Source: an uncultured Clostridia bacterium (GTDB lineage Bacteria; Bacillota; Clostridia; Christensenellales; Borkfalkiaceae). From it: DNA of 59,966 nucleotides. Made by a program: the position numbers and the translations under genes. Within the stretch, counting starts at the first letter, position 1; every line of letters starts with the position of its first letter. The notes beneath the pieces were generated by a model. That model was not told where the DNA came from. It was given only the letters and a program-made list of their open reading frames with translations, and made no database searches. Location: NCBI GenBank assembly GCA_930990665.1, contig CAKNQN010000009.1:1-59966 (forward strand). The letters are read 5' to 3'. Below are positions 1,374 through 55,114 of this stretch, piece after piece.

Positions 1374-2315
1374 TTAGAATTTATTTGCCTTTTCGGCGAG
1401 TTCCACGATCTCGTTGATGCGGTCCAGGTCGTCGGTGTTGTAGTAGTCAATGTAGATGCGGCCCTTGCGGTCGTTGCCGATGAGGGAAACTTTCGTCTTG
1501 AAAGCGTGGCGCATCCGCTCGACGAGATCTTTCAGCTCGATGGAGACCTGCTGTTTTTTCTTTTCCTTTTTGTCGGCGAGTTCTTCGGGCGAAGCGAAAT
1601 AGTCGCGCACGCTGCGTTCGATGTCGCGGACGGAAAGGCCGTCTTTGACCGCGTCGGTGGCAAGCTTGTACTGCGCGTCTTCGGGCAAGGTGACGAGCGC
1701 GCGCGCATGGCCGGCGCTCAGCCTGCCCGATGAGACCATGGTGATGACCTCGGGCGACAGCGAGAGAAGGCGCAGGGTGTTGGTGACCGCAGGACGGCTC
1801 TTGCCGATGCGCTCGGCGAGCTCTTCCTGGGTGAGATGGTACTCGTCCATCAGCTGTTTCATGGCGTTTGCCGCCTCGATGGGGTTGAGGTCCTCGCGCT
1901 GCAGGTTTTCGATGAGGGAGATCTCCTTGATCTCGCGGTCGCTGTACGAACGGACGACGACAGGTATGGTCGTCTTGCCCGCCATCTTCGCCGCGCGGTA
2001 GCGGCGTTCGCCCGCGATGATCATGTACTTGCCGCCCTCCATGTTGTTGACGACGATGGGCATGATCAGCCCGTGCTTTTTGATGGAATCGGAAAGCTCC
2101 GCCAGCGCCTCCTCGTCAAAATGCTTGCGCGGCTGGTTGGGATTGGGGCGGACGAGGTCGATGTCTACCTCTTTCAGACCCTTGATGTCCTCGGGCAGGG
2201 GCGCAGAGGGAATATCCTCGGGAAAGGGGGATTTGGCGGCGTTTTCATACGCCTCCTCCGTATCCGAAAACAGCGCCGAAAGACCGCGGCCGAGCCCCCT
2301 GTTCATCTGTTTCAT
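1374..2315 (-). CDS. parB: chromosome-partitioning protein ParB (Spo0J)
   Basis: A 313-residue CTPase clamp that loads at parS sites and slides on flanking DNA, organising the origin and recruiting SMC. The N-terminal RGLGRGLSALF is the ParA-stimulating peptide. GERRYRA (about 102-108) and ENLQREDLNPIE (about 136-147) are the conserved CTP/parS-binding motifs, and a helix-turn-helix covers about 161-185 (TQEELAERIGKSRPAVTN). The C-terminus is the dimer domain. Its start overlaps the parA stop by four bases (ATGA), so the pair is translationally coupled. Candidate parS targets lie 6 kb away at 8.25-8.9 kb. Length and motifs are normal for the family. Confidence 0.97.
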   Translation of the reverse strand: MKQMNRGLGRGLSALFSDTEEAYENAAKSPFPEDIPSAPLPEDIKGLKEVDIDLVRPNPNQPRKHFDEEALAELSDSIKKHGLIMPIVVNNMEGGKYMIIAGERRYRAAKMAGKTTIPVVVRSYSDREIKEISLIENLQREDLNPIEAANAMKQLMDEYHLTQEELAERIGKSRPAVTNTLRLLSLSPEVITMVSSGRLSAGHARALVTLPEDAQYKLATDAVKDGLSVRDIERSVRDYFASPEELADKKEKKKQQVSIELKDLVERMRHAFKTKVSLIGNDRKGRIYIDYYNTDDLDRINEIVELAEKANKF

Positions 2316-3088
2316 TTTTTACGCTCCTCCCTCTTCAGATATTCTTCGGTGAGTGCCTTATAGGCGCGCGCCCCCGTGCATTTGGGGTCGTGCAGGAGGA
2401 TGGGTTTGCCGTAGGACGCCGCCTCTACCAATCGGATGTTGCGCGGTACGACGATCTCGAACAGCCGCTTGGTGAAAAATTTCTTGATCTCTTCGGCGAT
2501 CTGACGGGAGATCAGCGAGCGGCTGTCGTACATGGTCAGAACAACGCCGTCCACTTCCAGCCCGGGGTTGAGATGCTGTTTCACGAGCGTGATGGAATTC
2601 ATCAGCTGCGACAGACCTTCGAGCGCGTAATATTCGCTCTGGATGGGGATGATGACCGAGTCGGCCGCCGAAAGCGCGTTGATGGTCAGAAGCCCCAGCG
2701 ACGGAGGACAGTCAATGAATATGTAATCGTACTTGTCCTTGACCTCTTCCAGCTTGGATTTGAGCACCTTTTCGCGGTTGCGCTTATAAACCAGCTCGAC
2801 TTCCGCGCCCGCCAGGTCGATGTTCGAGGGCAGAAGGTCGAGATTCTCCATCTCCGTCTTGCGGATGTTGGCAGACGCCTTTTCTTCGTCCTCGATGAGA
2901 ACATTATACACCGATTCTTTCAGCGAGCTCTTGGAAAGCCCGAAACCGGTGGTCGCATTGCCCTGCGGGTCGATGTCTACAAGCAGTACTTTCTTGCCGA
3001 ACGACGCGATGTACGCCGCCATGTTCACGCAGGTCGTCGTCTTTCCGACGCCCCCCTTCTGGTTGGAAAACGATACGATCTTTCCCAT
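2312..3088 (-). CDS. parA: chromosome-partitioning ATPase ParA (Soj)
   Basis: A 258-residue deviant Walker-A ATPase that dimerises on ATP, binds nucleoid DNA and is stimulated by ParB; in spore-formers it also modulates DnaA. The sequence shows KGGVGKTT near residue 10-17, the switch motif DIDPQGNATTG (about 38-48) and the Walker B strand YIFIDCPPSLG (about 120-130). It is the first gene of the parA-parB operon. The upstream 94 bases carry a GC-rich inverted repeat belonging to the ftsH 3' end. The start ATG at 3088 follows a weak AGAG-containing leader. Confidence 0.97.
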   Translation of the reverse strand: MGKIVSFSNQKGGVGKTTTCVNMAAYIASFGKKVLLVDIDPQGNATTGFGLSKSSLKESVYNVLIEDEEKASANIRKTEMENLDLLPSNIDLAGAEVELVYKRNREKVLKSKLEEVKDKYDYIFIDCPPSLGLLTINALSAADSVIIPIQSEYYALEGLSQLMNSITLVKQHLNPGLEVDGVVLTMYDSRSLISRQIAEEIKKFFTKRLFEIVVPRNIRLVEAASYGKPILLHDPKCTGARAYKALTEEYLKREERKK

Positions 3089-3145
3089 TTTTCATTACCT
3101 CTCTTTGGTATTCGGAGCGGCTCCCGCCGCTATGCTTTTGCAATC

Positions 3146-3178
3146 CCCGCCCGCGGCCGGCTACGGCCGCGGGCGGGC
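3146..3178 (-). terminator. GC-rich hairpin after ftsH
   Basis: CCCGCCCGCGGCCG and CGGCCGCGGGCGGG are separated by four bases, just beyond the ftsH stop codon. There is no long T-run, so it may terminate poorly and let ftsH transcripts read into parA. Confidence 0.55.
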
Positions 3179-3182
3179 CTTG

Positions 3183-5126
3183 TCAGTTGTTGCCGTCGCC
3201 CTTGTCTTTCGGCGCGCTCTCCGATGCGGAGGACCCTGCCGGAGCAGAAGGCTTTTCATCGTCGGTAACGAAACGCTTGAACGGGTTTTCCTCTTCCTGC
3301 TTCTCGTATTTGTCCATGTGCGCGTACACCTGCTCGGTCGTCGCACCGTCGAGCAGCATATCCACCTCTTCGGTGTAGATGGTCTCGCGCTCAATGAGGA
3401 CGCGCGCCATGTTGTCGAGCACCTTGCGGTTTTCGGTGAGAAGTTTCACGGCGCGGTTGTGTGCCTCGTCGATGATCTTGTGCACCTCTTCGTCGATGAT
3501 GCCCGCCGTCTCTTCGCTGTACGTGTTGTGCGCCTCCATGTCCCTGCCGAGGAAGATGGGGCTGTCGCTCTGGTAGGTCACGAGGCCGACGCGGTCGCTC
3601 ATGCCCCATTCGGTGACCATCTTGCGCGCGATCTCGGTGACCCGCTGCAAGTCGTTGGATGCGCCCGTCGATACGTCTTTGATGACCAGCTCTTCCGCCA
3701 CGCGCCCGCCGAGAAGCTCACAGACGAGGTCGGTGAGTTTGGCTTTGGTCATGTGGTTGTCGTCGTTGTCCGGGCGGGTCATCGTGTAGCCCGCGGCCAT
3801 GCCGCGCGCAATGATGGAAACTTCCTGCACCGGATCGCAGTTTTTGCAGAGCTTTGCGATGATCGCATGGCCGCTCTCGTGATAGGCGGTGATCCGCTTA
3901 TCCGATTCGGTGACAAGGCGGCTCTTTTTCTGCGGGCCGAGCAGCACCTTGTTGATGCCCTCGAACAGTTCCTGGTTGCCGATCATCTTTTTGTTTGCGC
4001 GCGCGGTGAGAATGGCCGCTTCGTTGAGAAGATTTTCCAGGTCTGCCCCCGAAAATCCGCTGGTCATGCGCGCGAGGATCTTGAAGTTGACGTCCGGCGC
4101 GAGCGGTTTGTTGCGCGCGTGGACTTTGAGGATGGCCTCCCTTCCGCGAACGTCGGGAAGGTTGACATGGATCTGACGGTCAAAACGCCCCGGACGCAGC
4201 AGGGCCGGGTCGAGGATGTCGGCACGGTTGGTCGCCGCCATCACAATGATGCCTTCGTTGGTCTCAAAGCCGTCCATCTGGACAAGCAGCTGGTTGAGCG
4301 TCTGCTCGCGTTCGTCGTGACCGCCGCCAAGGCCGGTGCCGCGCTGGCGGCCGACCGCGTCGATTTCGTCGATGAATACGATGCAGGGCTGGCTCTTTTT
4401 CGCCGCGTCGAACAGATCGCGCACGCGCGACGCGCCGACACCGACAAACATTTCCACAAAGTCGGAGCCGGATATGGAGAAGAAAGGCACGTTCGCTTCG
4501 CCCGCGACCGCCTTCGCAAAGAGCGTTTTACCCGTTCCCGGAGGGCCTACGAGAAGAATGCCCTTCGGAATGCGCGCGCCCAGATCTGCAAATTTGCGGG
4601 GGCTTTTGAGAAATTCGACCACTTCCGCAAGCTCCTGCTTCTCTTCCTCCGCACCCGCAACGTCGGAAAAACGCACCTTGATGTTGGAGTTGACCCGCGC
4701 TTTGGTCTTGGCAAAGCTCATCGCCTTGCTCCCGCCTCCCTGCGTCTGGCGTATGAGCAGCCAGAATACCACGCACACGAGGATCACGCCGAAAAGCGGG
4801 ATCAGATAGGACATAAAGCTGCCCGCGTTGGGGTCGGTATAAGTATAGGTGATGCCGTACTGCTTCGCCCAGTTGTCCAGCAGCTGGGCATCGAATTCCA
4901 TGCGGCCGAACGTCGCCTCATACACGACGCGGCCACCCTTGTAACAGAGAAGATTGTAATCGTCCACAACGATGCGATCGATCTCCCCCGCCACAACGTG
5001 CTGCTCGACTTCGGAATAGTCGATCTCCTTGCCTCCGCTGAGCATGCTCGTGAGCACGATCGAGAGGATCAGAACCAATACCACGCCGAGTACGACCCAG
5101 AGCAGTATTTTGGATGTTTTACTCAT
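3183..5126 (-). CDS. ftsH: ATP-dependent zinc metalloprotease FtsH
   Basis: A 647-residue membrane AAA+ protease that extracts and degrades membrane and short-lived cytosolic proteins. Transmembrane helices lie at about 7-27 and 107-126, with a short external domain between them. The AAA module has Walker A GPPGTGKT (194-201), Walker [12 protein letters not shown] and the second region of homology ending RPGRFDR. The protease zinc motif HESGH is at 416-420. The tail after residue 600 is acidic and low-complexity. The ATG is preceded by AAGGAG seven bases upstream. FtsH next to ParA is an unusual neighbourhood. A 35-bp tandem array begins about 195 bases upstream of the start. Confidence 0.97.
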
Positions 5127-11762: not shown

Positions 11763-11791
11763 TTGCACAAGATGAATGATTGTGATATAAT
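11763..11791 (+). promoter_or_regulatory. promoter of pilin-like gene 1
   Basis: TTGCAC (11763-11768), 17-base spacer ending TGTGA, TATAAT (11786-11791). The element strongly resembles the promoter of the second pilin-like gene (TTGCCC, 17 bases ending GATGA, TATAATTTA). Confidence 0.75.
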
Positions 11792-11853
11792 TTACACTGT
11801 TAAAAATTCCGATAAAAATCAATGCAGAAAAATTTTTGAAGGAGGGTATTTTT

Positions 11854-13620
11854 ATGATGTTTTTGCGTCATAAAGCCCCGCTAAGTGAGGAAGAAGCGGG
11901 GAGTAAGCGCACGGTAAAGTCGGCTTTGCGGCGCGCGTTCACGATCACCGAGCTTGTGATCGTAATCGCCGTGGTGGCGATCCTGGCAGCGGTGCTGATC
12001 CCGACGTTTGCCAATATCATTGACAAGGCGAACGAATCGGCGGACACGCAGACGGTCAAGAACCTGAACACGATCCTGGAAGCGAACGAGACGCTGGGCG
12101 ATCGTGCGGATACGGTAGAAGAGGCTCTTGCGCAGGCGCTGGAAGGCGGCTACAAGGTGGAGAACCTGACCCCGACCAGTGACGGATACGATATCGTATG
12201 GGATGCAGCGAACAACCGTTTTGCGCTCATTGATAAAGACGGGAACAAGATCTTCGGCGACCCTGCCACGCCCGACAACGTCGCGGGAACGGGGTGCTGG
12301 CAGTTTTCCGAAAACTACTCCGACGTTTCCGACGATAATTATCTATGGTATATGTCGCCCGAAGCGCAGCTTCCTGTAGACGGAAGCGGCAATCTGAATG
12401 TCAGCACCAGCATCAATCTGAGCGCCTTCCCCGAACTGGAAAGCGTGACCGTCCCCGCTGATGCGTCCGGAAAGATCGATATCACGCTGAACAGCGATCA
12501 GACAAATGTGATCGTTGGCGGCTCCAGTACTGCTACTGCTAACGAAGCGACTGTTAATGTTTACGGTTCTATGAAATCCATTCAAGGGCCAAAACCTACC
12601 GCCAGTTTCCAAAATGCCATCGGCGGAAATTATGGGATGAACTCTCTGCATATTTACGGAAATGTAGAGTATCTCTATTATGCTACGGGGCACGTGGTAA
12701 TTGAAAACAATGCTTTTGTCGGAGCTTTGGTCGCCACTTCCGTATTCTCTTCTAACGCCGATAAAATTGATATTGAAATCAAAGCGGGCGGAAAGATTGA
12801 TTATTTGGCAACATCAAGTCAAGTCAACTTGTCTACTTTCAAAGATCCCGCAAAATTGATGAATTATATAGATGATCAAAACGCTGTATCCTCTGTAAAT
12901 ATTCTTTCCGATTACAATATTTCCATCGATTCATTCTTTGTTTCCGGTGGTTTAGGGGTCGAAAAATATCCTTATTCTATAACTACGAATTCTCAGTTTG
13001 GTTATATTAACTCTATCAATTATAGCGAACCCGTACCTTATTATTTTGAATTATCCGCAGATATAGTAATTAGTACTCAATATTTTACTCAATTATCGAA
13101 TATGTATCTTGACCTCAACGGTCATACTATCACAATCAACGTAAAAGATTCGGATACCGTCGCCTCTGCGTTTTTGGTCCAGAAAGGGCACGAACTTACC
13201 ATCAACGACTCCGTAGGTACCGGCGGTATTATCACCCCTGCAAACTATTCGACTGTCGGGAGTGTTGGTTATATCTTTGCACTTGTAGGAACTTCCGGCA
13301 ATAGCAAACTTACCATCAACGGCGGCAATTTTGTTTGCGGTCTGACCGCTGTACAGACAGACGACAAATGCACGGCTGTCATCAATGGCGGAAAATTCTC
13401 TTCGCTTGTAGAAGAAGGGGAGGTTTTCCTGCTCAACCGAATAGACCATGCTGACGACGGCGGTCCTCTCTCCACCATTACGGTAAACGGCGGTCGGTTC
13501 AAGGATTTCGACCCCGCATCCAACAATGCGGACGGCGCAAAGACCAATTATTTGGGCAGCGGCCATACTTCCACAAAAGATACTTCTGTTGCCGGAGAAG
13601 TGTGGTATGTAGTTGCATAA
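11854..13620 (+). CDS. type IV pilin-like protein with beta-helix passenger, 588 aa
   Basis: The ATG at 11854 has GGAGGG eight bases upstream; a TTG 18 bases earlier lies on the ribosome site and is rejected. A 28-residue basic leader ends RRA, then FTITELVIVIAVVAILAA: a class III prepilin signal and pilin helix with Glu at +5, but Ala rather than Gly at -1. Residues to about 150 form a short pilin-like domain. The rest is a long passenger with LDLNGHTITI, LTINDSVGTGG and INGGNF/INGGKF/VNGGRF units, typical of right-handed beta-helix surface proteins. GC content drops through the middle of the passenger. No pilus assembly genes (pilB, pilC, pilD) are nearby. It is probably exported and surface exposed; function unknown. 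Confidence 0.85.
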   Translation: MMFLRHKAPLSEEEAGSKRTVKSALRRAFTITELVIVIAVVAILAAVLIPTFANIIDKANESADTQTVKNLNTILEANETLGDRADTVEEALAQALEGGYKVENLTPTSDGYDIVWDAANNRFALIDKDGNKIFGDPATPDNVAGTGCWQFSENYSDVSDDNYLWYMSPEAQLPVDGSGNLNVSTSINLSAFPELESVTVPADASGKIDITLNSDQTNVIVGGSSTATANEATVNVYGSMKSIQGPKPTASFQNAIGGNYGMNSLHIYGNVEYLYYATGHVVIENNAFVGALVATSVFSSNADKIDIEIKAGGKIDYLATSSQVNLSTFKDPAKLMNYIDDQNAVSSVNILSDYNISIDSFFVSGGLGVEKYPYSITTNSQFGYINSINYSEPVPYYFELSADIVISTQYFTQLSNMYLDLNGHTITINVKDSDTVASAFLVQKGHELTINDSVGTGGIITPANYSTVGSVGYIFALVGTSGNSKLTINGGNFVCGLTAVQTDDKCTAVINGGKFSSLVEEGEVFLLNRIDHADDGGPLSTITVNGGRFKDFDPASNNADGAKTNYLGSGHTSTKDTSVAGEVWYVVA

Positions 13621-13635
13621 CCCCAAAACCAAAAC

Positions 13636-13670
13636 GCGGGAGCGCCGAATGGCGCTCCCGCTTCTCTTTT
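13636..13670 (+). terminator. terminator of pilin-like gene 1
   Basis: GCGGGAGCGCC, loop GAAT, GGCGCTCCCGC, then TTCTCTTTT, 16 bases past the stop. Confidence 0.85.
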
Positions 13671-13680
13671 CCGTTAAAAT

Positions 13681-17815: not shown

Positions 17816-19627
17816 TTATCTGCTTTCGTCTTCGTCTGAAAGATCGGATGCGCCGTCTTTTTTCGTTTCCGCGGCAATCGGATCGTCCAAAGCGAGAGAA
17901 TCGGCGGCAGATGCGCCCCCCATAGGCGCAAAATCTTCCGCAGGTACAGAATCCGAACGGTCGGCGATGTCGGCGGCAGGCACGATATCGGCGGACACGG
18001 GGACCGAAAGATCGGCGATGTCGACGGCAGGGGCGGTATCGGCGGACACGGCGGCCAAAAGATCGGCGGCGTCGGCGGCAGGCACGATATCGGCGGACAC
18101 GGGGACCGAAAGATCGGCGGCGTCGGCGGCAGGCACGATATCGGCGGACACGGGGACCGAAAGATCGGCGATGTCGACGGCAGGGGCGGTATCGGCGGGC
18201 ACGGCGGCCGAAAGATCAGGGACGGGGGCAGGGGAGGCTCCCGCGGCGGAAAGGTCGGAGGAGGCCATTTTGGCGAACTCCCTGCGGCGGACGTATGCGA
18301 AGAGGCAGACGGCGTGCACAAACGAGGTTACGACCCAGCTGATGGGGTAGGAGAGGTAGAGGTTGAAGAGGGTGCGATTGGCGGCGAAACAGGTAAAGAT
18401 GTACACGATGCGCAGGCCGCACACGCCCGCAATGGAGACGAGCATGGGCGTGACCGAATGTCCCATGCCGCGCATGGAACCGACGAGGACTTCCATGATC
18501 CCGCAGAGAAAATAGGTGGTACAGATGACGGAAATGCGCTGCATTCCGAGGCGGATGACCTCTTCCGATCGGGTGTAGATGGAAAGGATCTGCGGCCCCG
18601 CAAAATACACGCCGAACCCGAGCAGCAACCCGAGCACCGTCACGACCAGCAAGCTGTCGATGAGCACGACGTCGATGTTCTTTTTGCGGTGTGCGCCGAA
18701 GTTCTGCCCGGTAAAGGTGAGGCAGGCTTGCGAAACGGCGTTCATACAGGTATAGACGAACCCTTCGATGTTGGCGGCGTCGGCGTTGGCGGTGATGGTC
18801 ATATCGCCGAAGGCGTTCACCGAGGACTGAATGACGACGTTCGAGAGGGAGAAAATGCACCCCTGCAGCCCCGCGGGCAGGCCGATGCGGAGAATATCGC
18901 CCAAGGCGTCTTTATACAGCCGCAGACGGCGCAGGCAGACCTTACAGTGCCCCTGCAGGCGCATGAGATGCCCCATCACGAGGGCGGAAGAGATGATCTG
19001 CGAGATGACCGTGCCGAGCGCCACGCCCGCCACGTCCATGCGGCACACGGCGACAAAAAAGATGTTCAGCCCGACGTTCGCCACCCCCGCCGCACAGAGA
19101 AAGAAGAGGGGATGTTTCGAATCTCCCCGCGCACGGCAGAGAGAGGACCCGAAATTGTAGAGCAGGTTGAAGGGCATCCCCGCAAAATAGATCTGCAGGT
19201 ACATGGTCGAGAGGGGCAGAACGCTGTCGGCAGGGACGTTCATCAGAAGCAGGAGGGAACGGGCCGCCAGGATCCCGAAAATGCCGATCGCCACCCCGCC
19301 GATCAGCGCGATGAGGATGGCGGTATGCACCACGCGGTCCAACCGCTGTTCGTTCTTCGCCCCGATCCACCGCGCGGCTGACGTGCACGCCCCCACCGAC
19401 AGCCCCAAAAACAGGTTGACGGTCAGGTTGATCAGCGAGCTCGTCGAGCCGACCGCGCCCGCCGATACGTCGCTGGCGAACTGGCCGAGGGTGATGATGT
19501 CCGCCGCATTGTACAAAAGCTGCAATATTCCCGTCGCCATGATGGGCAGCGCAAACAAAATGATCTTGCCAAGCAGCGGCCGCGAACACATATCTAACTC
19601 GCGCCGCTTTTTCACCTTTTCTCTCAT
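17816..19627 (-). CDS. MATE-family efflux transporter 1 with repeat tail
   Basis: 603 residues. The first 470 are a normal 12-helix MATE antiporter (MCSRPLLGKIILFALPIM near the start, LLYNAADIITLGQF, two pseudo-symmetric halves), which would export drugs or metabolites using a Na+ or H+ gradient. The last 120 residues are Ala/Asp/Val/Ser-rich 17-residue repeats (DLSVPVSADIVPAADAA) encoded by a 51-bp minisatellite. The ATG at 19627 is preferred because relatives carry a short KKRELDMCS-like lead; it lies only eight bases after the -10 box, so the mRNA would be leaderless. An ATG at 19591 is the alternative. It is divergent from a second MATE gene. Confidence 0.9.
   Translation of the reverse strand: MREKVKKRRELDMCSRPLLGKIILFALPIMATGILQLLYNAADIITLGQFASDVSAGAVGSTSSLINLTVNLFLGLSVGACTSAARWIGAKNEQRLDRVVHTAILIALIGGVAIGIFGILAARSLLLLMNVPADSVLPLSTMYLQIYFAGMPFNLLYNFGSSLCRARGDSKHPLFFLCAAGVANVGLNIFFVAVCRMDVAGVALGTVISQIISSALVMGHLMRLQGHCKVCLRRLRLYKDALGDILRIGLPAGLQGCIFSLSNVVIQSSVNAFGDMTITANADAANIEGFVYTCMNAVSQACLTFTGQNFGAHRKKNIDVVLIDSLLVVTVLGLLLGFGVYFAGPQILSIYTRSEEVIRLGMQRISVICTTYFLCGIMEVLVGSMRGMGHSVTPMLVSIAGVCGLRIVYIFTCFAANRTLFNLYLSYPISWVVTSFVHAVCLFAYVRRREFAKMASSDLSAAGASPAPVPDLSAAVPADTAPAVDIADLSVPVSADIVPAADAADLSVPVSADIVPAADAADLLAAVSADTAPAVDIADLSVPVSADIVPAADIADRSDSVPAEDFAPMGGASAADSLALDDPIAAETKKDGASDLSDEDESR
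17962..18216. repeat. 51-bp minisatellite in MATE 1 tail
   Basis: Five in-frame tandem copies of a 51-base unit (CGGCGATGTCGGCGGCAGGC, then ACGATATCGG and so on) starting at 17962, 18013, 18064, 18115 and 18166. Two sequence subtypes alternate irregularly. Confidence 0.9.
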
Positions 19628-19634
19628 GCGCCCC

Positions 19635-19663
19635 ATTATACTACGCCCGTCCCGAAAAGTCAA
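19635..19663 (-). promoter_or_regulatory. promoter of MATE 1
   Basis: Minus strand TTGACT (19663-19658), 17-base spacer, TATAAT (19640-19635). The expected transcription start is at or next to the ATG. Confidence 0.8.
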
Positions 19664-53121: not shown

Positions 53122-53160
53122 AAACGGCCGGCCGTTTCTTTTTTGCAAGCAAAAAAGAAA
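53122..53160 (+). promoter_or_regulatory. possible transcription attenuator in the pilin 2 leader
   Basis: AAACGGCCGGCCGTTT (53122-53137) followed by C and six T looks like an intrinsic terminator. TTTCTTTTTTGC / GCAAAAAAGAAA (53135-53146, 53149-53160) overlaps its T-run and could compete with it. The order terminator-then-alternative stem lies between promoter and ribosome site (AAAAAGGAG). Confidence 0.5.
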
Positions 53161-53209: not shown

Positions 53210-55114
53210 ATGGCAAAAAGATGGAAACGTGCGTTTACGATCACGGAGCTTGTCATCGTGATCGCGGTAGTGGCGATTCTCGCCGCGGTGCTGATCCCCA
53301 CTTTTGCGAACGTCATCAAGAAGGCGGACGAGAGTGCGGACACGCAGATCGTGCGGGAGATGAACACGGCATTGTCCATGGGCAGCGCGGAAGGAAATCC
53401 CGATTCGATCGGCGAGGTTCTGGACATTCTGCTCGAAGAGGGCGGTTTTGACATGGCCAAGGTCAATCCTTCATCGGAGGGATATCTGTATGCGTGGGAA
53501 AAGGCATCCAACCAGATCTTGCTGCTCAACGAAAAGGGGGAGGTAGTATACAGCAACCGCGCGTATGATACGGCGGACTGGGAGCTGTATGTTCCTGTCG
53601 GGAACAACACGGCGGCGACGGCGCTCAACGTATTCAGCGGCAAGGCGAACGTGTATGTTTCGGAAGATCTCACCTTTGATTTTAAGTTCAAGAATGCGAT
53701 GTCTCTTATGGTGGCGGAGGGCAAGACGCTGACTGGCAGCGTGACGCTGGGCGGAAGCGCTGCGGCGTCGGCCACGATCAGCGGACAGATCGACGGAGCG
53801 CTCGTAGTCAATAACGCAGCGGCGGAAGTGTCCCATTACGGCATGGTCGAAAGCGTCGATCTGCAGGCGGTCGCGTCGAACAGCTATCATGAATACGGCA
53901 CGGTTTTGGGCGAGTTCAGCGTATCGCAGGGGCGCGTCGTGGTCGAAAACGGAGCCAACGTATCGGAAATTTCCGTACCCGCGGGCGCGCAGAACGTAAA
54001 GATTCTTTCCAATGCGTCGCAGAACGTCGTGGTCACGACGGAATCTTCTTCGGTGACGATCGAAAAGGGCGCAGGCAAAGTGTTTGTCGGCGGCTCGCAG
54101 GCGAGCGGCGTTGCGGGAAGTGGAGCGATCACTGTACAGGAAGTCGGGGATAAAGCCTCGTTGAAAGCTGCCATGCAGACGAATTCCTATGTGCGCCTTA
54201 CACAGAATCTGGTATTCACGACGGCAGATATTATCGATATCCCCGCGGAAGCGGCTGTCGTCTTGGATATGAACGGCAAGAGCATCACGGTGGAATCGGA
54301 TTTTGAAGGCCATCCGTTTGTCAACAACGGTACGCTTACCGTCACCGGCAACGGAACGATCGATTCTTCTGCTTCAAGTAAAAACGGGAAGGGAGCCATA
54401 GAAAATTATGGTACTTTACTTATTGAAGACGGTAATTATCGTGGTGCCTATGCCGCAGGCGGATCAGTTATACGTAATATGGGTAAAGATGCTGTATTAA
54501 TTATAAATGATGGAATTTATGAAGAGGCCCCTGTTGCAGTATTTAATGAAGGCACAGCAACTATAAACGGAGGCTCGTATACAGGAACGACATGCAGTGC
54601 TTGTGATAAGGATTATTGGACTTATACAATCAGAAATACTACGGTTGACAGTTATATGATTATCAACGGCGGTACGTTTATCGGAACGCAGGGCGCTGTT
54701 TCCGCGGCGATCGGTACATTGATTGTAAACGACGGATATTTTAAGAGCGTTGTGTGCGAAAACAATCATACCGGAGCGGTATTTTATGCTCTATATGCAG
54801 CCGGTGAAGCCGGCAGAGTTCGTTGCGTGATCAACGGCGGCACCTTTGAAACGGAAGGAAATGTTACTGCGGTTTCAATCGGTAACGATAACTCCGGCGG
54901 CGACGGCGGTATCAAAGCGCCCGCTACGGGAGAAATTTACGGCGGCACGTTTATTGCACCGGCTGGTGTGGATGCATTGCGTGTTGCGGACGTAACGGGC
55001 ACTCCGTTTATTTTCGGCGGTTCTTATACCAAGGCTTTTGATGAAAAATATTTAATGACAGGTTATGAATTTGTTCAAGAAGGCAACTACTATGTCGTGC
55101 GCGCGATCGCGTAA
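53210..55114 (+). CDS. type IV pilin-like protein with beta-helix passenger, 634 aa
   Basis: The ATG follows AAAAAGGAG by eight bases. The leader MAKRWKRA is only eight residues, then FTITELVIVIAVVAILAAVL, the same class III signal and pilin helix as the 588-residue protein, again with Ala at -1 and Glu at +5. The next part (to about 130) shares ESADTQ and N-terminal pilin-like segments. The passenger carries VLDMNGKSITV, TVTGNGTIDSS, INGGSY/INGGTF/VNDGYF units and ends YYVVRAIA, comparable to YVVA in the other protein. Internal AT-rich patches lie at 54390-54700. It interrupts the nrdG-nrdD locus in opposite orientation. Probably surface displayed; function unknown. Confidence 0.85.
   Translation: MAKRWKRAFTITELVIVIAVVAILAAVLIPTFANVIKKADESADTQIVREMNTALSMGSAEGNPDSIGEVLDILLEEGGFDMAKVNPSSEGYLYAWEKASNQILLLNEKGEVVYSNRAYDTADWELYVPVGNNTAATALNVFSGKANVYVSEDLTFDFKFKNAMSLMVAEGKTLTGSVTLGGSAAASATISGQIDGALVVNNAAAEVSHYGMVESVDLQAVASNSYHEYGTVLGEFSVSQGRVVVENGANVSEISVPAGAQNVKILSNASQNVVVTTESSSVTIEKGAGKVFVGGSQASGVAGSGAITVQEVGDKASLKAAMQTNSYVRLTQNLVFTTADIIDIPAEAAVVLDMNGKSITVESDFEGHPFVNNGTLTVTGNGTIDSSASSKNGKGAIENYGTLLIEDGNYRGAYAAGGSVIRNMGKDAVLIINDGIYEEAPVAVFNEGTATINGGSYTGTTCSACDKDYWTYTIRNTTVDSYMIINGGTFIGTQGAVSAAIGTLIVNDGYFKSVVCENNHTGAVFYALYAAGEAGRVRCVINGGTFETEGNVTAVSIGNDNSGGDGGIKAPATGEIYGGTFIAPAGVDALRVADVTGTPFIFGGSYTKAFDEKYLMTGYEFVQEGNYYVVRAIA

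Follow-up and report, generated by a model that had tools for sequence, protein, structure and literature searches.

A shared pilin head probably lets one pilus machine of an uncultured Clostridia bacterium display a choice of binding parts. The protein that led to this reading is encoded on a contig of 59,966 nucleotides (the window, contig C9), part of a metagenome-assembled genome (MAG) of 1.5 Mb in 28 contigs that is 74 % complete (the home genome). We consider it likely that this target protein is a modular type IV pilin that depends on a single, remote machine, displays a binding module at the filament tip and is one of several alternative long subunits. Judged by sequence, the family appears to fit the known class of modular pilins. 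What is new is the dispersed multi-copy repertoire, its setting without PilT and its mRNA leader.

How type IV pili gain their many functions is an open question. Modular pilins offer one answer from the literature, elaborated in Streptococcus sanguinis with two subunits. With a helix that is identical residue by residue within the home genome, passengers that are mostly invisible to domain databases and up to eight long subunits for a single machine (in genome G036), the present family offers a natural series on the limits of pilus cargo. It also bears on whether loss of PilT accompanies display and on the attachment of uncultured Clostridia.

The target frame (11854-13620) is a single uninterrupted open reading frame of 588 codons (Table 1). 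Directly after the Ala (-1) that ends its leader stands FTITELVIVIAVVAILAAVLIPTF, and the leader together with E5 constitutes the class III signal by which modular pilins are recognised: a hydrophilic leader closed by Gly or Ala, then a stretch of about 21 hydrophobic residues that includes Glu5. The NCBIfam model TIGR02532 (prepilin cleavage/methylation domain) scores 19.7 bits, above its cut-off of 16.3, and Pfam N_methyl 16.4 bits, below its cut-off of 21.2. An earlier note, made from the letters of the window, had described a complete class III prepilin signal and pilin helix; the above-cut-off match, the 28-residue leader and the Ala at -1 bear this out. About 450 further residues lie C-terminal of the helix.

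Table 1 Positions of the features discussed (plain numbers refer to the window; other positions are given as contig or locus and position)
Feature	Position	Strand	Basis
Promoter-like site TTGCAC-17-TATAAT, sigma-70-like	11763..11791	+	by eye
Ribosome-binding site AGGAGGG, upstream of ATG at 11854	11840..11846	+	by eye
Prepilin leader of target, 28 residues, last residue Ala	11854..11937	+	sequence
Pilin module, made up of an assembly helix (with F1, E5 and P22) and a neck domain	11938..12255	+	genome matches
Stalk, kept in part of the family; NSYHEYG / GRVVxE pattern in relatives	12256..12939	+	alignment A2; end by eye
Distal passenger: NGG module behind a start segment GGxGxExxPY	12940..13617	+	alignments
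Terminator-like hairpin GCGGGAGCGCC/GGCGCTCCCGC, then T-rich run	13636..13671	+	by eye
Two overlapping hairpins before second window member	53122..53160	+	hairpin and model searches
Second long member of the window, 634 aa, MAKRWKRA leader	53210..55114	+	head match
Head matches in the home genome	C9:11938 (target), C9:53234, C6:93219, C7:36774, C8:35478, C8:33160, C10:6204, C10:47390		
Copies of the mRNA leader	window 53122-53160; L009:13595, L011:6104, L012:9291, L013:8673 and relatives		

Because a protein of 564 mature residues from another MAG (L025, 51 % identity) aligns with the target over its entire mature length, the fusion of pilin and passenger is a conserved gene; a relative of 519 residues from another family (L136, 34 % identity) has its parts in the same order. 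The frame error or pair of separate genes that the earlier note had considered is ruled out by the intact frame and these two relatives, both of which share the layout of the target. Along the mature gene the G+C content is 0.55-0.57 in the first 600 bases, then 0.30-0.42 and then about 0.5, a profile that suggests a passenger of mixed origin. DUF1559 is a mark of PVC-type pilin-like proteins, and its Pfam model matched neither the target nor the second member of the window at E <= 1; plasmid records gave no match to the target at E 1e-5. The passenger was also considered as a phage gene and rejected, PHROGs matches being confined to the pilin part of the target. Stretches 34-37 % identical to the NGG module of the target occur in three human-gut phage records, one of them within a hypothetical protein (L193, OQ749652.1 44481-45950; L194 is likewise phage); at that identity they are too distant, and we therefore name no source for the module.

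The earlier note had suggested searching the genome for relatives of the head. The mature pilin module finds eight matching places in the home genome (E 3.8e-64 to 1.9e-13), with differing C-terminal parts. Seven are long members of 530-765 mature residues, at seven places on five contigs; the eighth is a short pilin of 139 mature residues, whose match is limited to the first part of the module. Mature residues 1-24 are identical in all seven long members. In each of the 21 pairs, 7-13 of the 72 bases behind these residues differ (59-65 shared), so the identity reflects purifying selection, not recent copying, and recent gene conversion of the heads is ruled out. Between the C8 and C10:47390 members, identity is 95 % over the head and 28 % over the passenger. 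Run against solved structures, a profile of the eight heads (A1) aligns with pilins at their N-terminal helix (best E 3.7e-12); 19 distinct sequences match at E <= 0.01, most of them inside that helix.

F1 and E5 are present at all eight places. P22 is found in 86 of 87 long pilin-headed proteins, a set in which six doubly fetched genes are counted once and incomplete proteins are kept; conservation of F1 and E in the wider set is uninformative, since the pattern that gathered it demanded F1, E at position 4 or 5 and Gly, Ala or Ser at -1. Relatives are not simply ordinary short pilins, an outcome for which the earlier note had allowed: among 107 complete pilin-headed ORFs of the collected loci, which include the home genome and other pilin types, 72 have at least 300 mature residues and 34 at most 240.

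Ala at -1 had been taken as unusual, and a PilD of relaxed specificity had been proposed for it. Neither idea survives. Ala ends the leader at six and Gly at two of the eight places, side by side in a genome with one PilD found, and Ala stands at -1 in 58/126 pilin-headed ORFs of the collected loci (the pattern allowing Gly, Ala or Ser only). In the excerpts of the literature cited here, Ala is an accepted prepilin cleavage residue (PMC8179133; PMC3244431), so that a relaxed PilD is unnecessary, and Gly or Ala at -1 lies within the definition of modular pilins (PMC8179133). That definition, together with the two kinds of leader and the one PilD found in this genome, rules the relaxed enzyme out.

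The machine itself lies elsewhere in the genome. One PilD (C8:28485), one PilC (C8:26603-27580, two domains) and one PilB (C8:24849) score above cut-off in the home genome, a set spanning C8:24849-28820; none of the three is in the window, all above-cut-off matches being on contig C8. The earlier note had seen no machine gene near the target and had offered a remote machine as one option. Both points stand: with PilD, PilC and PilB all on contig C8, beside two family members, the target would rely on a remote machine. Upstream in the C8 operon, on the same strand, are a long member (797 aa with leader) and the short pilin (152 aa), together with a single-pass protein of 176 aa, two proteins of 198 and 253 aa whose N-termini are of pilin type, and a frame of 654 aa, PilM-like by eye, which matched no Pfam or NCBIfam model. 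No gene of this operon was identified as PilN or PilO.

We searched 61 genomes for the head, PilC and PilB: 37 of the genus, the home genome included, and 24 members of other families of the order. PilC and PilB occur in 10/37 genus members; the head occurs in those 10 and in G007, and 26 have neither. The matches in G007, the one genome with a head among the 27 genus members without the machine, are weak (9e-8, 1e-6) and come without PilC; one translated frame is another pilin type, and contamination is possibly the source. Elsewhere in the order, head, PilC and PilB occur together in G037, G051, G056 and G060. G040, G042, G046 and G057 have no head, with weaker PilC and ATPase matches such as other filament systems would give, and 15/24 have neither head nor machine. 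Fisher tests of head against PilC, which keep G007 and treat the genomes as independent although they are related, give p = 3e-8 within the genus and p = 1e-8 over the full 61. Each machine-bearing genus member has 1 to 8 long frames of at least 300 aa, 41 in the 10 genomes by a hand count that includes partial matches. In G047 (L116:1497-2650) the neck domain matches a frame without a pilin helix, in a genome with no PilB or PilC match; this pilin relative is a possible relic after machine loss.

These observations bear on the possibility that the pilin helix is only an anchor and secretion signal, the long proteins being cut by PilD and remaining unpolymerised surface monomers. Of the seven long genes in the home genome, one sits in the machine operon and six lie elsewhere, as such monomers would permit, and in the modular-pilin survey, as excerpted, processed pilins are held in the membrane by their helix before assembly (PMC8179133). 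However, the assembly-linked F1, E5 and P22 are kept in the home-genome members, P22 nearly throughout the long proteins; the presence of the head tracks PilC and PilB in the genus; and one long member stands upstream within the PilB/PilC operon. We consider monomers unlikely and favour assembly into a pilus.

Behind the constant head the proteins diverge. In an alignment of 18 relatives of the target (A2), mature residues 1-106 form the pilin module; a stalk of ~230 residues common to part of the family follows, then a segment of the pattern FAGGxGTExxPYLI, beyond which conservation falls. Of the 3741 pairs that the 87 long proteins form, 3740 match over residues 1-106 at E <= 1e-3, and 678 over the remainder (4094/4095 and 742/4095 with the double fetches retained). 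Nine of the 21 pairs of home-genome passengers match, at 25-38 % identity, so that part of the diversity of passengers is divergence, not exchange. The target passenger matches those of the C6, C10:47390 and C8 members at about 26 % over 144-276 residues, and gave no match to the passengers of C10:6204, C7 and C9:53234.

The earlier note had read more than 400 residues of the target as beta-helix. This proves too long: the LDLNGH/INGGxF pattern is found at about residues 415-550 only, and the first ~230 passenger residues are the stalk, a different conserved part. The last ~200 residues form the NGG module (LDLNGHTIT ... LTINGGNF ... VNGGRFKDFDPA). None of the Pfam beta-helix models matched the target, and its residue periodicity is not above that of shuffled sequences; a beta-helix is a fair reading of the NGG motif, as a putative fold. 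Nine NGG-module rows (A7) can be aligned from LDLNGHT to GGxFxxFNPA, followed by an NFVAxGY-like end. Four of these rows are pilin-headed, and five come from four frames (378, 761, 1376 and 2950 residues) of other genomes, each closed by an upstream stop and none with a pilin head; the frames of 761 and 2950 residues start, by eye, with a Sec-like signal. A profile of the GGxGxExxPY segment (A4) matches 3n6z, a solved putative IgA1 protease (E 1.3e-4), and the NGG module has no credible relative among solved structures (best E 0.15).

Pfam, run at E <= 1e-3 on the 72 complete long members, recognised Beta_helix in two and LRR_5, Glug and Pectate_lyase_5 in one each; four further matches, to LRR_8 (in the LRR_5 protein), FTCD_C, Phage_TAC_9 and DUF2232, look like chance or overlap. 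Since Pfam leaves most of these passengers unmatched, a domain-based survey would miss them. By eye, the C7, C8 and C10 members appear to carry GLUG-like passengers, with no match to Pfam Glug in those scanned. Judged from its domains, L027, from another species of the genus, would show most clearly that unrelated passengers can share a mount: its LRR_5 (E 1.3e-54) follows the family's pilin module and stalk. This leucine-rich repeat protein contains what we take to be the entry IPR026906. In the excerpted survey, IPR026906 is among the 15 commonest modules of modular pilins (PMC8179133). The LRR_5 of L027 and the head-less NGG frames show modules that are not specific to pili, as in modular pilins. 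A surface-display family with variable passengers, which the earlier note had ventured, is supported by the seven long ORFs, by passengers that match in only nine of 21 pairs and by the LRR_5 of L027.

Polysaccharide lyases often have beta-helix-type folds. It is accordingly conceivable that the passengers are pilus-displayed enzymes, such as polysaccharide lyases on a beta-helix, and not adhesins. The two Beta_helix matches among the 72 long members would suit this, as would the single Pectate_lyase_5, which is described as an adhesive domain; but no catalytic family matched the target, and we regard enzymes as quite unlikely passengers compared with binding modules.

The motor ATPases set the genus apart. 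At E <= 1e-10, exactly one PF00437 protein, PilB-sized, is present in each of the 10 machine-bearing genus members, and two to four in each of G037, G051, G056 and G060. In each of these four genomes an ATPase of 354-362 aa is taken for a putative PilT by its size and, in three of them, by its position beside PilB. A type II-like secretion system or a competence pseudopilus with the long proteins as its pseudopilins, to which the absence of a second motor ATPase from all 10 genomes would point (secretion systems do without one), and whose NCBIfam models gspG and ComGC touch the helix far under their cut-offs, is very unlikely given the separate short pilin in the machine operon and the one to eight long members with diverse passengers per genome, to our knowledge no feature of such systems.

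Judged by PF00437 count and size, then, no PilT was found in the 10 machine-bearing genus members, and the filament is therefore probably not retracted by PilT. All are incomplete MAGs (the nine besides the home genome are 66-94 % complete), so that a gap in the assembly could account for the missing PilT in single cases. The excerpted literature already knows Gram-positive pil operons that have no pilT (PMC3244431), and its absence alone is thus not new.

Large pilins had been presented in the earlier note as an anomaly, which they are not. Raynaud and others defined modular pilins in 2021, with over 1,200 proteins in 264 architectures, and the excerpts of their survey call this count a probable underestimate, with more modules expected outside the databases (PMC8179133). 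The modular pilins PilB (vWA) and PilC (lectin) of S. sanguinis likewise have a class III leader, the pilin module first and a big C-terminal module, and their extra modules are thought to sit at the pilus tip, as far as excerpts of the two sources go (PMC8179133; PMC10628169). S. sanguinis has two such pilins, whereas here seven long genes lie at seven places and no PilT was found. The type IV pili of Clostridia and S. sanguinis also share with the present system the kind of helix and PilB, PilC and PilD in monoderms, but in the excerpted source they are described with PilT (PMC6916266), and here the long members exceed the short pilin about four- to fivefold in length. ComZ of Thermus thermophilus is another pilin with a large added domain. 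Its beta-solenoid is inserted in the pilin sheet, whereas the passenger here, of putative fold, comes after the pilin module (PMC8179133, as excerpted). The tapirins of Caldicellulosiruptor (PMC7142884, in excerpt) differ: their model NF051896 gave the short pilin only 15.8 of 600 bits, no match at E <= 1 for the target and none in the five long members scanned. Among the open-licence papers listed on type IV pili, modular pilins and prepilin beta-helices, titles and abstract openings mention no such repertoire.

We propose that, after membrane insertion, the single PilD of contig C8 would cut the target after Ala28 and the PilB/PilC machine would assemble it into a filament in which the short pilin of the C8 operon is probably the main subunit. 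The large C-terminal part would then be carried at a distance from the cell, most likely at the tip of the filament, and act as a binding module for some ligand. At least seven long genes would supply alternative subunits to this one machine. Since it has to fit into the filament, the pilin module would be preserved by selection, while the passenger beyond the stalk may be exchanged, perhaps by recombination, and sometimes move between species. Probably without PilT retraction, such a filament would serve display and attachment rather than twitching.

One gene points to recent exchange between species. The C6 member and its homologue in G035, of the same genus, share 97.7 % DNA identity over 2.2 kb (L009:11723-13913 versus L026:23-2223), against 82-86 % for the C7 and 75-79 % for the C8 pair of the same two genomes, and it is this difference that suggests the exchange. 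Downstream of the C6 gene, the frames of the two genomes share only about 30-36 % likeness. As a caveat, each of the two contigs ends about 350-400 bases before the gene starts, which looks like a break at a repeat.

Two overlapping hairpins precede five of the six non-operon long genes of the home genome and were not found before the target. The layout is a loop-less palindrome and a second hairpin using the same 3′ arm, followed by a TTAACGGC-like stretch and a ribosome-binding site. In 11 aligned copies all 143 cells are paired, and in 6 of the 13 pairs both partners have changed, a result favoured by the choice of all 11 through hairpin searches; sliding the partner lowers the pairing to 49-57 %. 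A hairpin filter was passed by 27 of 79 long genes with enough upstream sequence (25 after removal of L089 and L095 by eye) and by 10 of 2460 shuffled upstream pieces. By -1 residue, the 25 leaders fall to 24/41 genes with Ala and 1/38 with Gly.

Within 732,581 bases of loci chosen around pilin heads or passengers, and with repeated cores, low-G+C cores and antisense readings removed, 27 distinct copies stand before pilin heads and six elsewhere: two reuse a listed palindrome on the other strand, two are A/T-only and two precede a small membrane gene. In these last two loci (L069:2462, L079:2471) the leader is followed by a small membrane protein gene, recognised by eye, and then by a pilin-headed gene. 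Searched against whole genomes, the leader model also matches in the home genome, where an ABC transporter follows, in G021 (followed by a lipoprotein) and in G013, G018 and G008 (followed by zinc-ribbon proteins); these genes are named by eye, and the four other genomes have no pilin head. A pilin-specific element is ruled out by these similar leaders before other genes; the predicted double hairpin is a lineage-wide leader, used by most dispersed members of the home genome. RNAalifold gives only a weak consensus for the 26-row alignment because the palindromes are out of register, and Rfam has no family for the leader in the 8 loci scanned. The two pairings are mutually exclusive and therefore suggest a switch or timer, which is a guess.

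Taking these observations together, we tentatively entertain, as possible rather than probable, a non-retracting display stand: dispersed tip subunits would each offer a fixed plug and stalk, a GGxGTExxPY joint and swapped beta-helix, GLUG or leucine-rich modules, with some interspecies exchange, and the double-hairpin leader on most dispersed copies might choose or time the subunit.

The earlier note had placed the target near the origin, which the ParB, ParA and FtsH genes at 1374-5126 of the window make plausible. Further along the window, a MatE transporter frame (17816-19663, minus strand) carries at its end several near-repeats of ~17 residues (DLSVPVSADIVPAADAA; window 17816-18320).
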